From Treponema sp. (GTDB lineage Bacteria; Spirochaetota; Spirochaetia; Treponematales; Breznakiellaceae): a stretch of 64,000 nucleotides of DNA. The translations under genes were made by a program, and so were the position numbers. Shown here in pieces: positions 19,322 through 24,379 of this stretch. The notes under the pieces were generated by a model. The model searched no databases and had not been told where the DNA came from. It saw nothing but the letters and a program-made list of their open reading frames with translations. Within the stretch, counting starts at the first letter, position 1. Each line of letters begins with the position of its first letter. The stretch is taken from the NCBI GenBank assembly GCA_009782955.1, contig WRIB01000001.1, forward strand, positions 1 through 64,000, given 5' to 3'.

Positions 19322-19343
19322 AGCGATACTTTCTAAATTTTCT

Positions 19344-19369
19344 CTCGTGGAGGCGCGGAGAGCGCAAAG
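19344..19369 (+). repeat. Left copy of a 26-bp inverted repeat bounding an AT-rich islet
   Basis: ctcgtggaggcgcggagagcgcaaag; 22/26 match to the reverse complement of 21353-21378. Confidence 0.85.
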
Positions 19370-19547
19370 TTTTCAGTCTTTGCGCAAAAATGACTGTTGT
19401 AAAATGACATTATTTTTGAATATTTGTGAGTATTTTTATAAAAAAGTGAATAAAAAAAGTATTGACATTATTGATTTTCGTGGTAATGTATTTATGTGGT
19501 GCAAGACTTTATATTATTTCAGTTTGGAAAGATCGTAGGGGTATAAA

Positions 19548-20090
19548 TTGTCTAAGCCTAAAATTCAAAAAGAAGCCATATTTACGATTCTTGAAAATAT
19601 ATTTGGAACAGGAAGTGTGCAAAAAGAGGTTTCATACAACTGGATGGCCTCTCCAGGTAAAATGGATGACGCAGGGGAATATACAAATATCATTCAATCC
19701 CTTGTAAATTATAGAAATAAAATAGAATTTGTTAAAACACATAAACCAAATTGTGATTTTGTAATAGAAAGCAAAAAAATTATTGTTGAATATGATGAAC
19801 GTCAACATTTTTCCGAAGCAAGAAAAATTGCATTAGAAGCATATCCTTCTAATGTTATGCTATTTTTTGATAAAGAAAAATGGATTGAATATTGTGAGAA
19901 AATTAATGCAAAAGACAACGATCCGCATTTTAGGGATGAACAGAGAGCATTTTATGATTCCGTCAGAGATATAGCAAGCGATAAAAACGGCTATAATCTT
20001 TACAGAATAAAAGATAATGAATTTGATTGGACATCTAAAGATGCAGAATCAAAGATGAGATATTTATTAAGTATTAGAGAAGAAAAATAA
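19548..20090 (+). CDS. Hypothetical protein, possible PD-(D/E)XK / Vsr-like nuclease fold
   Basis: NCDFVIESKKIIVEYDERQHFSEARK (Asp ... E-x-D-E-R-x-H). Annotated start is TTG at 19548 as in the ORF track; exact start uncertain. Confidence 0.5.
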   Translation: MSKPKIQKEAIFTILENIFGTGSVQKEVSYNWMASPGKMDDAGEYTNIIQSLVNYRNKIEFVKTHKPNCDFVIESKKIIVEYDERQHFSEARKIALEAYPSNVMLFFDKEKWIEYCEKINAKDNDPHFRDEQRAFYDSVRDIASDKNGYNLYRIKDNEFDWTSKDAESKMRYLLSIREEK

Positions 20091-20917
20091 TGTCAATGTC
20101 AATAAATAACCCAACTAATATTTCCATTTCAAATGAAATTAAAATGAAAAGCCCTTGCTTAAACATTTCAAAAATTGGTATCGTTTCGAGAAATTATAAT
20201 GATAAAGAAGATTTTTCCGAAAGTTTTTATGATATTCTGCAATATTTAGACAGTCAAGGCTGTGATTGTGCTTTATTTTCTCTGTTTACGTTGCTTGCAA
20301 AAAACAGTTTGAACTTAGATATTTTAAGGTTTAAATATTTAAGGAGTATCTTTATAGAAGAATTCGAGAAAAAAGATAACAAAAGGCAAGCAACCTGTTA
20401 TATTGTTTATTATTCGGAAAATGGAAACAGCTGGAAATCGCATCCATTTACTCAAATGTTTGGGTCTATAAGCAACAAAAAACCAGAATACCTTAAAGAA
20501 TTTATTGATGAAGAAGTTCCAAATAAAAGAATCATGGGAAATGCTCTTGTTTTACTTTGCGGTGAAAGTAATATTGTAAAATATAATAAGAAACAAATAA
20601 GAGTTGAAGATATATATGGAATTCTCAAAAAGATACCAAACAATACAAATATTATATTAAACCCAATACATGATAGAATGACACGATTTGAGATGAAAAA
20701 GAAAAGGGAGTTTTTATCAGAAAATAATAGAATTGTTATTTCCGTATGGAATAAAGGAAAAACTTTTAAAAATGATCGAATAGACAATAAAAGTCCTGCA
20801 TATACTGTTTTTTATAATGGCAAAGAAAAACTAATAAAAAAGGAACATTATATATCAAAAAACGATCCTTCAATTGAAGTAGCAATTATTGAAACTGAAT
20901 TAATAATTTTGAAATAA
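20090..20917 (+). CDS. Hypothetical protein, possible nitrilase/C-N hydrolase-like fold
   Basis: NALVLLCGESNIV, NNTNIILNPIHDRMTRFEMKKKREFLSENNRIVISVWNKGK; overlaps the end of the preceding gene. Confidence 0.45.
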   Translation: MSMSINNPTNISISNEIKMKSPCLNISKIGIVSRNYNDKEDFSESFYDILQYLDSQGCDCALFSLFTLLAKNSLNLDILRFKYLRSIFIEEFEKKDNKRQATCYIVYYSENGNSWKSHPFTQMFGSISNKKPEYLKEFIDEEVPNKRIMGNALVLLCGESNIVKYNKKQIRVEDIYGILKKIPNNTNIILNPIHDRMTRFEMKKKREFLSENNRIVISVWNKGKTFKNDRIDNKSPAYTVFYNGKEKLIKKEHYISKNDPSIEVAIIETELIILK

Positions 20918-20993
20918 TGTTGAGAACGAGAGATAGGGGTGAAAGGCGAATAATGAAGGCAAAATACCGAGCCTATCAGATGCCGTTTGCTTT

Positions 20994-21347
20994 TTATATT
21001 CTTTTCCACCCATTTTTTAATAATTCATCAAGCATATTATTTTCATGAAATTCTTTAACTGATATTTCTTTATAGATTCCTTTTTCCAAAGAACCATTTT
21101 TTGCAAAAACAAATAATTTTGCAAACATATCATTATATATTACATCATTACCATTTTTCATTATAGGAACTACAGATATACAACATCCAATATGACCTTG
21201 ACAAATATACCTTTCATAAGTATTCAATTCTTCAAAAGGTGTATTACTCCATGGCCCTAATTCTGTCATAAAAACATTGGAGGTAAAATGTTTTCGCTTT
21301 CTGTTAATATTCAATTCGTTTAAATTCGTGTAATTCGTTGATCTCAT
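20994..21347 (-). CDS. Small hypothetical protein
   Basis: 117-codon ORF; its first ~25 codons read through repeat-like sequence (aattcgtttaaattcgtgtaattcg), so the true start may be MTELGPW. Confidence 0.4.
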   Translation of the reverse strand: MRSTNYTNLNELNINRKRKHFTSNVFMTELGPWSNTPFEELNTYERYICQGHIGCCISVVPIMKNGNDVIYNDMFAKLFVFAKNGSLEKGIYKEISVKEFHENNMLDELLKNGWKRI

Positions 21348-21352
21348 ATTTC

Positions 21353-21378
21353 CTCTGCGTTCTCCGCGCCTCCGCGTG
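21353..21378 (-). repeat. Right copy of the 26-bp inverted repeat
   Basis: + strand ctctgcgttctccgcgcctccgcgtg; inverted relative to 19344-19369. Confidence 0.85.
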
Positions 21379-21394
21379 AAATATTTTGGAGGAA

Positions 21395-23206
21395 TTACAT
21401 TTTAATAGCGGCGGCAATTTCCGTTACAGCTTCAGACGGGGAAATAAGATGCGCTTCCTTTTCGCTTCGTCGCTTTACTTCTACCATGCCGTTGGCAAGA
21501 TTTTTGTCCCCGACTACTATTCGCCAGGGAATGCCCAATAGATCGGCGTCGTTAAATTTAACGCCGGCCCGTTCGTCCCTGTCGTCGAGTAATACTTCGG
21601 CACCGGCCTCTTCCAGTTCGCAAGTGAGTTTGTCGCAGGCTTCCTGAACAGAACCCTGGTATTTTATGGGGATAACGATTACATGGTATGGGGCAACTGA
21701 AACAGGCCAGATGATCCCCTGTTCATCGTGATGTTCTTCGATAATGCTGGCAAGGGTACGATCCAAACCAATGCCATAACAGCCCATAAGCGGCACATGG
21801 CTTTTTCCGTTTTCATCCAGGTAGGAAACTCCCATAGAATCGGTGTATTTTTTGCCCAGTTTAAAAATGTGGCCCAGTTCGTTTCCTTTTTTTTCGTATA
21901 GTTCTCCGCCACATTTAATGCAGCAATCTTTGGCTTTTACCGTTCGGATGTCGGCAGTTAGCCATGCGTTATAATCCCTGCCGCAGACGGCATGCCGATA
22001 ATGCTTATCTTTTTCCAGGGCTCCGGTAACAGCGTCATTCATGCCGGTTACTGTTTGATCAATAATTATTGGTACAGATTCCAGCCCCACCGGCCCTGCA
22101 AAGCCTACCGGCGCTCCGGTAATTCTTACCACATCTGCTTCCGCTGCAAGGCTTACTTCGGCTGCTTTTAATACAGCTGCAAGTTTTGTTTCGTTTATAT
22201 CCAGATCGCCGCGTATGGCTACGGCAAAAAATGCTTCGTTATAGCTTACCGGTGCGCCGGTAGCGGTAGGATTTTTGACAAGGTTTTTGCAGCCCGGAGC
22301 GGAGGACAGATCCGTTTCAACATTGACCGCTTTATAGATCAACGTTTTAATAAAACTCTTTGCATCGGTTTTAAGGAAGGTACATAGTTCATCTATGGTT
22401 TTTACTTCCGGTGTATCGATCTTTTCTACCGGCGGGGTGTTGATCGCATCACGGGCATTTTCGGGAGAAGGCCGGGTGATGTAGTCGGATTTACATTCAG
22501 CTTTTTCAACATTGGCAGCATAGTCGCAGTTTTTACAGAGGAGCAATGTGTTGTCTCCAATATCACTTTCCACCATAAATTCTTCCGATCCCGAACCGCC
22601 CATGGCCCCCGAATCAGCTTTGACGGGAATTACCGTAAGACCGCAGCGTTTGAATATCTGCCGGTAAGCTCTTCCCTGTGCCTGATAATGTTCATCCAGG
22701 CTTTCTTCGCTGGTATGAAAGGAATAAGCATCCTTCATAATAAATTCGCGGCCTCTCATTACACCGTACCGGGGACGAATCTCGTCGCGGTATTTGGTAT
22801 TGATTTGATAAAGGGAAAGAGGAAGCTGACGATAGCTGGAAAGTTCGTCCCGGACAATACTTGTAAAGGCTTCTTCTGCTGTCGGAGAAATTACAAAATC
22901 CGCACCTACTCTGTTTTTTACCCGCAGCAGTGCTTCTCCCATGGAATCCCAGCGGCCGGATTCTTTCCAAAGTTCGCCGGGTACAACAACGGTGGGTTTT
23001 ATTTCCAGAGATCCGATGGCATCCATTTCTTCCCGGACTATTCTTTCTACTTTACGAAAACAGCGAAGGCCCAGGGGCAGGTAGGCAAAGAGGCCGTTGG
23101 AAAGTTTACGGATCATCCCGGCACGGAACATTAACCTGTGGCTGGCTATAATTGCATCCCCCGGAACTTCACGAAGCGTGGGAATAAATGTCTGAGAATA
23201 CTTCAT
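21395..23206 (-). CDS. proS: Prolyl-tRNA synthetase
   Basis: SNGLFAYLPLGLRCFRKVERIVREEMDAIG, RDEIRPRYGVMRGREFIMKDAYSFH, C-terminal LLDDRDERAGVKFNDADLLGIPWRI. Confidence 0.97.
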   Translation of the reverse strand: MKYSQTFIPTLREVPGDAIIASHRLMFRAGMIRKLSNGLFAYLPLGLRCFRKVERIVREEMDAIGSLEIKPTVVVPGELWKESGRWDSMGEALLRVKNRVGADFVISPTAEEAFTSIVRDELSSYRQLPLSLYQINTKYRDEIRPRYGVMRGREFIMKDAYSFHTSEESLDEHYQAQGRAYRQIFKRCGLTVIPVKADSGAMGGSGSEEFMVESDIGDNTLLLCKNCDYAANVEKAECKSDYITRPSPENARDAINTPPVEKIDTPEVKTIDELCTFLKTDAKSFIKTLIYKAVNVETDLSSAPGCKNLVKNPTATGAPVSYNEAFFAVAIRGDLDINETKLAAVLKAAEVSLAAEADVVRITGAPVGFAGPVGLESVPIIIDQTVTGMNDAVTGALEKDKHYRHAVCGRDYNAWLTADIRTVKAKDCCIKCGGELYEKKGNELGHIFKLGKKYTDSMGVSYLDENGKSHVPLMGCYGIGLDRTLASIIEEHHDEQGIIWPVSVAPYHVIVIPIKYQGSVQEACDKLTCELEEAGAEVLLDDRDERAGVKFNDADLLGIPWRIVVGDKNLANGMVEVKRRSEKEAHLISPSEAVTEIAAAIKM

Positions 23207-23221
23207 TATACTTACCTTAGC

Positions 23222-24379
23222 TCACCTGACCGTAACCCGAATCATGCTTCCGTTGGCCAGGGCAATTATTCCTTTTAACGGATGGGTTCCCTGTTTTTTA
23301 TAGGGAGATGTCTCCGCTATGGCCTGTGAATCCATTGTTTGAACGGTAAACCGCAATAAGTTCCGGCCTATCCGGACAACCTGATTGTTTTCGTTGCCGA
23401 TGCCGGGCAGTATGGCTGACGGTGAATTAAGCATAAAACCCCCGAAAGGCGGGATCTTTTTTATCAGTGTTTCTTTTTCATCGGTGATAACAATCTCTTT
23501 GGTTTTAAAAGCTCTGATAAGAAACACAATAAGAAGGATTAAAAGAAGCGGTATCAGTATCAGGCATGCAATAAGCGCCGGCAGCGGAATACCCAAAGAT
23601 TCGGCTAATCTGCGGAGAAAACCCATAATACCGGCGTTTTGCTGTTCATTCAGTTTTTGTTCTTCTTCCAGCCGGCGTGCTTCTTCTTCCCTTGCCCGCT
23701 CCTCTTCTTCCAGTTGAGCTATAAGAGCGTTAGTTTCTATTCCGCTTAAATCTGAATCGGTGTTTAATAATTCCGAACCGGGAATGAGTCCTGCTACATC
23801 ACCGGCAGCAGTCTGGTCTCCTATACCAATTACATAAAGAAACCATGCGCCCCGGGAAATCCTGTTTCCAATGGATTTGAATCGTTCATCCACGGACAGA
23901 TCAACTCCCCGGTATTTACTGTCCGGAGGCGGAGCGTTAAGGCCATCTGTAATAAAGAGGATCACGCGCCGTGTTCCGGCTTTTTCCGGCCTTTCAATAA
24001 TTTCTGCAGTTTTTTCCATGGCAACGCCGATGTCAGTAAAATTGTCGGTTGGTTCCAATCGGGCCAGATCAGCTTTTAGCGCTGCCCTGTCGGCATCGGA
24101 ATTAATGGTACGTGTGAACTGTTCTCTTGCATTCGTACCAAAAAGAACCAGGGTAAAATCATCGCCGTTTTTAAGAAGGCCGTCAATCACCTCACGATCC
24201 AGATAATTCTTTACATTGGTAAACCTGTTTTCTTCCTGCATACTCCCCGAAACATCCAGGATTACGACAAAATCCCGTCTTTTAGTATCCTGGTCTGCCT
24301 GAGACTGGGCAAAGAGAGAATATCCACCAATAAAAAATATTATTCCGGTAATTAGTAAAACGATCCTGAGGTTTTTCAT
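23222..24379 (-). CDS. VWA-domain membrane protein
   Basis: DFVVILDVSGSMQEENRF (MIDAS), LFITDGLNAPP; TM near residue 265. Confidence 0.88.
   Translation of the reverse strand: MKNLRIVLLITGIIFFIGGYSLFAQSQADQDTKRRDFVVILDVSGSMQEENRFTNVKNYLDREVIDGLLKNGDDFTLVLFGTNAREQFTRTINSDADRAALKADLARLEPTDNFTDIGVAMEKTAEIIERPEKAGTRRVILFITDGLNAPPPDSKYRGVDLSVDERFKSIGNRISRGAWFLYVIGIGDQTAAGDVAGLIPGSELLNTDSDLSGIETNALIAQLEEEERAREEEARRLEEEQKLNEQQNAGIMGFLRRLAESLGIPLPALIACLILIPLLLILLIVFLIRAFKTKEIVITDEKETLIKKIPPFGGFMLNSPSAILPGIGNENNQVVRIGRNLLRFTVQTMDSQAIAETSPYKKQGTHPLKGIIALANGSMIRVTVR

Follow-up and report, generated by a model that had tools for sequence, protein, structure and literature searches.

Genes A and B, which overlap in a 64,000-nucleotide stretch of a Treponema genome (hereafter, the window), may represent a split and divergent member of an uncharacterised nuclease-nitrilase family. 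This family would most likely act in anti-phage or anti-plasmid defence, with the nuclease, A, held or triggered by its partner, B, and we give this reading as a whole about an even chance. We hold more tentatively a wider version of it, namely, that a modular defence family (head, PD-(D/E)XK nuclease, and nitrilase, with swappable C-terminal modules) is widespread in bacteria and archaea, and that the nitrilase of the window is a pseudoenzyme gating the nuclease. Several facts weigh against the preferred reading: the pair in the window was recorded from one genome and lacks two modules of its relatives, B has no significant sequence match to nitrilases and a model of low confidence, 16 of the 35 loci with relatives of A fall outside the nuclease-nitrilase pattern, and the fused proteins match no PADLOC model. 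The features of the pair are as follows.

19548 to 20090, + strand: gene A, 180 aa, starting with TTG, taken as a nuclease of the PD-(D/E)XK type (DUF7255, with a DUF559/Vsr-like core)
20090 to 20917, + strand: gene B, 275 aa, starting with ATG, probably a nitrilase-fold partner in degenerate form (C-N hydrolase superfamily)
20088 to 20092, + strand: TAATG, in which the stop of A overlaps the start of B, read from the sequence
19755 to 19808, + strand: predicted catalytic core of A, D70 ... E81-Y-D83-E84-R-Q-H87, invariant in 27 aligned relatives
20558 to 20560, + strand: Cys157 of B, placed by alignment on the nitrilase nucleophile, with Leu (FSLF) in the Glu column and Thr in the Lys column

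Both frames are open, as proposed in the sequence-only reading, and have one base in common: the last base of the TAA of A (20088-20090) is the first of the ATG of B. The motifs quoted in that reading (NCDFVIESKKIIVEYDERQHF, CGES, IILNPIHDRMTRFEMKKKREFLSENNRIVISVW, and CDCALFSLFTL) were all found in the sequence. The TAATG overlap would be expected to couple the translation of A and B.

The nuclease gene and its linkage to nitrilases

In our reading, the product of gene A belongs to the PD-(D/E)XK nucleases and, among these, to the DUF559/Vsr type. The protein matched Pfam DUF7255 (PF23913) above the cut-off (4.5e-11, 43.1 bits; cut-off, 27), and its match to DUF559 was just under the cut-off (8.2e-4, 19.7 bits; cut-off, 20.6). 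A scan of species genomes returned 32 relatives with identities of 34-63% in Bacillota, Bacteroidota, Chloroflexota, Deltaproteobacteria-type lineages, Planctomycetota, and methane-cycling archaea. D70, E81, Y82, D83, E84, R85, Q86, H87, and F88 were invariant in a 27-row alignment of the family, and an RDExRAFYDSxRD block further along was nearly invariant. The profile of A reached one solved endonuclease-like protein, PDB 3hrl (E=0.02), in which both conserved halves, D..ExDxxQH and D..R..G..R, were matched in order. The DUF7255 match, the invariant motif, and the 3hrl match all agree with the core that had been proposed for this gene from the letters.

The link between this nuclease and nitrilases is real. 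Among 35 loci with relatives of A (Bacillota, Bacteroidota, archaea, Chloroflexota, and others), the nuclease was fused to or near a CN-hydrolase in 19, with 13 fusions and 6 cases of separate genes. Therefore, the pairing of a nuclease with a nitrilase-fold protein, which was suggested for the window, holds for its relatives, and the homologues do occur together. The usual relative is a protein of 575-775 aa with an N-terminal head, an A-like nuclease, and a C-terminal module. This module is a CN-hydrolase in L005-L008, L010-L013, L015 (broken by unread bases, although counted), L017, L036, L049, and L050. In Bacteroidales (L016, L019, L021, L024, L025, and L026), a separate nitrilase gene is located downstream of a nuclease gene of 187-199 aa; one small gene intervenes in L025. 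In L024 (8513-10222), the head is joined to the nitrilase and not to the nuclease, which indicates that the head is an independent module. The fused, split, and L024 arrangements suggest that the three modules recombine, yet keep together. Matches of the partners to CN_hydrolase (PF00795) ranged between 1.6e-12 and 1.2e-9 in four tested relatives, with 3.8e-5 in L049, and the nitrilase Glu, Lys, and Cys were retained in all 15 of the aligned partners.

The remaining 16 loci depart from this pattern: the C-terminal domain is another one, a partner is missing, or the gene is broken or cut short. Another domain is present in ANME-type archaea (L009, L018, L020, L023, and L027) and in L014, and a domain with no family assignment in L003, L004, and L034. 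There is no C-terminal module in L028, L029, and L031 and no partner for L030/L032, while the copies in L022 and L033 are disrupted or incomplete. The loci devoid of a partner are what would be expected if A were a stand-alone restriction or repair endonuclease, with B independent of it and their pairing a matter of operonic convenience. However, fusion to or adjacency with a nitrilase recurs across phyla, and we consider this explanation to be very unlikely.

Several observations were made on the other modules. The head follows the pattern W..I..DVI.AI..F..PEYPEPRSTFLVYNGKKLPAKHIRGMAY...GG.ETVRFF..LGF and did not match any Pfam family; a suspected resemblance to the N-terminal part of ScoMcrA-type enzymes was not confirmed. 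Head-nuclease relatives extend to archaea: in L009, L020, L023, and L027 (ANME-type), the head and nuclease are fused to a different C-terminal domain, of no assigned family, with the pattern ACGTxAFKHLHLHPTTS...CAINEGPIFTL, and a conserved gene is located directly upstream of the fused gene in L009, L020, and L027. The C-terminal domains of L003 and L034 ('GCHDL') were considered as degenerate nitrilases; alignment scores did not support this. The partner nitrilases carry a C-terminal extension of 190 aa (A5; e.g., L005:9288-9845 and L016:9306-9881) with a conserved RAMENxC motif. Pfam gave no match to this extension. Its motif resembles the nitrilase RAIENxC (hhalign score of 30.5 against 19.1 or less for 60 column shuffles), and the extension may correspond to a second half of a nitrilase that has degenerated. 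When 201 genomes were screened both ways, the nuclease was found in two and A5 in the same two, with the hits falling in the same 765-aa frames.

The nature of gene B

B is probably a degenerate nitrilase. Ordinary searches of genome contigs, viral contigs, plasmids, phages, and 393 Spirochaetota genomes returned no relatives of B. The protein did not match CN_hydrolase (PF00795), was also missed when its own genome was searched for the family, and showed no match to the C-terminal extension of the partners. Weak matches to zf-C2H2_13, PD-T4-4_B, and NanE were short and under the cut-off, and were rejected. The hhalign score of B against the partner nitrilase profile (17.5) was not significant: 25 of 200 shuffles and 18 of 94 natural proteins scored at least as high; the path was collinear over almost the full length (B 14-270 on profile 28-284). 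In a MAFFT alignment of B with 15 partner nitrilases (A3), KIGIVS of B falls on strand 1 and DCALFSL on the strand with the pattern D-x-x-V-F-P-E; KKKREFLSENN is matched to the conserved KVRAIENN, and Arg206 and Glu211 are in nitrilase positions. The input set for A3 was selected after an earlier set had given a poorer register, which was a freedom of the analyst. The global alignment score of B against the nitrilases (49) exceeded those of all 100 shuffles (best, 46), and among 56 unrelated natural proteins, 55 scored below B and one as high. This score favours kinship only moderately. The alignment score of L004 against the nitrilase partners was as high as that of B.

Structure prediction was consistent with this result in one of two forms. 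AlphaFold with the single sequence of B gave a pLDDT of 36 and a pTM of 0.23, and a PDB search with this model returned nothing, as would be expected of so poor a model. With the nitrilase alignment as an input, confidence was still low (pLDDT 45, pTM 0.43), and the best PDB matches, which spanned the whole length, were to structures of the nitrilase superfamily (E 5.5e-4, TM 0.38); this match is partly circular because the nitrilase rows were in the input.

A different explanation is that B is an unrelated protein that occupies the place of the nitrilase beside the nuclease, and that the motif resemblance arose by chance. The hhalign controls and the lack of a Pfam match are in keeping with this, and archaea do pair A-type nucleases with unrelated-looking C-terminal modules. 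On the other hand, the alignment is collinear over the full length with the Cys and the Arg/Glu in register, the global score of B surpasses nearly all controls, and the position and gene order of B are those of the nitrilase partner in relatives. We regard an unrelated B as unlikely, but as deserving some weight. The resemblance of B to nitrilases, which was first noted from its motifs, received some support from the collinear alignment and the register of Cys157, but none from profile matches. If B is a degenerate nitrilase, the catalytic Glu is gone, as was suspected from the altered N-terminal region, and the Lys is probably also gone; the Leu in the Glu column has this meaning only with a nitrilase fold, which is itself probable.

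We propose the following mechanism for the preferred reading, in which A and B act as one defence unit. A and B would be made together and form a complex; members of the nitrilase superfamily usually oligomerise. Within this assembly, the nitrilase-fold subunit would keep the nuclease inactive; infection would lead to its release or activation, and the nuclease would then cut DNA. Where relatives retain the whole Glu-Lys-Cys triad, their nitrilase is probably also active on a cell metabolite, hydrolysing an amide that it bears, and would be a possible second effector. Since the B protein of the window appears to lack the Glu, it is expected to serve as a non-catalytic sensor or scaffold.

The islet and its spread

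The pair is located in an AT-rich islet in a region with carB, hisH, hisF, asnA, and proS as neighbouring genes. The source assembly (2.56 Mb, 94 contigs) is 86% complete. The features of the islet are as follows.

19401 to 21342, no strand: AT-rich islet between asnA and proS, defined by a GC drop and replaced in the same-genus genome G567
19332 to 19369, + strand: left arm of a GC-rich inverted repeat, 38 nt, 79% complementary
21353 to 21390, - strand: right arm of the repeat, with a near copy at the same edge in G567
20994 to 21347, - strand: 117-aa open reading frame within the islet, without a family match and of uncertain status as a gene

The GC content over the islet is 27-31%, against approximately 45% outside, and the repeat sites that flank it are the only two such sites in the window. 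Both flanks align with G567 at approximately 90-92%, and approximately 519 bp stand there in place of window positions 19401-21342. This replacement encodes antitoxin-like and PIN-like genes (VapB 0.0058, PIN 0.002; both under the cut-off), a VapBC-like pair. The fall in GC, together with the presence of another pair of genes in this place in G567, supports the proposal that the islet is mobile. An Rfam scan of the islet returned nothing, and promoter-like sites in it were no commoner than chance. In contig 47 of G567 (L054), 1.2 kb matching window positions 22588-23819 (the initial portion of proS and some of the gene after it) are absent, by either a deletion or an assembly fault.

The spread of A is patchy. 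Gene A was found in none of 393 Spirochaetota (the same-phylum set) or 200 same-family genomes except that of the window, and showed no match in phages and plasmids; one relative copy is located in a serine-recombinase element. Phyla were intermixed in the nuclease tree, in which the position of the window's A was weakly supported.

Occurrence in a single genome may also be viewed as a sign of decay, with the pair being a non-functional remnant of a three-module system that lost its head and whose nitrilase was inactivated. The pair lacks both the head and the 190-aa C-terminal extension of the partners, as well as (by alignment) the catalytic Glu, and broken copies occur elsewhere, such as L022. 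However, the frames of A and B are intact and overlapping, A retains every invariant nuclease residue, and split forms with a nuclease gene lacking the head also exist in Bacteroidales. Decay is, in our opinion, improbable. We give slightly less credence to a toxin-antitoxin-like unit, in which A would be a toxic nuclease and B its antidote, despite the overlapping two-gene layout and the VapBC-like pair at the same chromosomal site in the sister genome G567. Many relatives fuse both domains with the nitrilase triad intact, unlike a labile antitoxin, and B, at 275 aa, would be a large one.

Defence context and known systems

The neighbours of the relatives suggest an enrichment of defence genes, and the expectation that homologues would be found near such genes was confirmed for some of them. 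Defence-type neighbours include BrxL (L010) and AbiU-like and SNF2-helicase genes (L013), while PADLOC candidate-defence genes adjoin L003 (PDC-S11 and PDC-M57A) and L012 (PDC-S26). The neighbours in L005 include an HNH gene that shows a PtuB-like match, and a macrodomain protein and a serine recombinase are also among the neighbours of the relatives. In the Bacteroidota set, a distant DUF7255 nuclease gene (L090:6094-9892, - strand) adjoins DUF2130 and OLD/GajA-like (ATPase-TOPRIM) genes. The PADLOC models gave only short and weak matches to A (E 0.017) and B (E 0.006) and no match to eight relatives, including fused proteins. A nuclease-nitrilase system was absent from PADLOC and from the literature searched, the coverage of which excluded many subscription papers and preprints. 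If the preferred reading of A and B as a defence unit is correct, a nuclease-nitrilase family in several bacterial phyla would represent a second and independent use of nitrilases in immunity. Furthermore, natural versions seemingly with and without an intact active site would help to separate the catalytic and structural roles of nitrilases.

A shares with DUF559/Vsr-like endonucleases, such as PDB 3hrl, the residue order D...ExD..QH followed by D..R...G...R. In contrast, the A-type domain is longer (approximately 170 aa) and has its own conserved RDExRAFYDSxRDI block, and a mismatch-repair context was not seen for its relatives. A and the tested relatives clear the Pfam cut-off of DUF7255 (PF23913); however, this is a family without a known function, named in no paper of the literature searched (many subscription papers and preprints being outside its coverage), and the assignment files A but explains nothing. 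The partners in the relatives are clear members of the CN_hydrolase superfamily (PF00795) with Glu-Lys-Cys, whereas B has no match to the family profile and appears to lack the catalytic Glu.

Nitrilases are uncommon in antiphage defence systems (PMC13275509), and in the literature searched, with partial coverage, they appeared in this role only as fusions with reverse transcriptases. In DRT1, nitrilase domains form the core of the assembly and the system works by abortive infection; the nitrilase substrate in reverse-transcriptase defence systems is unknown (PMC13275509). A reverse transcriptase domain was found in neither A, B, nor the fused relatives scanned. The family described here resembles the DRT1-type reverse transcriptase-nitrilase systems (PMC13275509, PMC9122126) in that a nucleic-acid enzyme is tied to a nitrilase domain. 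However, the enzyme is a predicted PD-(D/E)XK nuclease and not a reverse transcriptase, the relatives carry a head domain of no assigned family and a C-terminal extension, and the nitrilase-like gene of the window stands separate and probably without the Glu.
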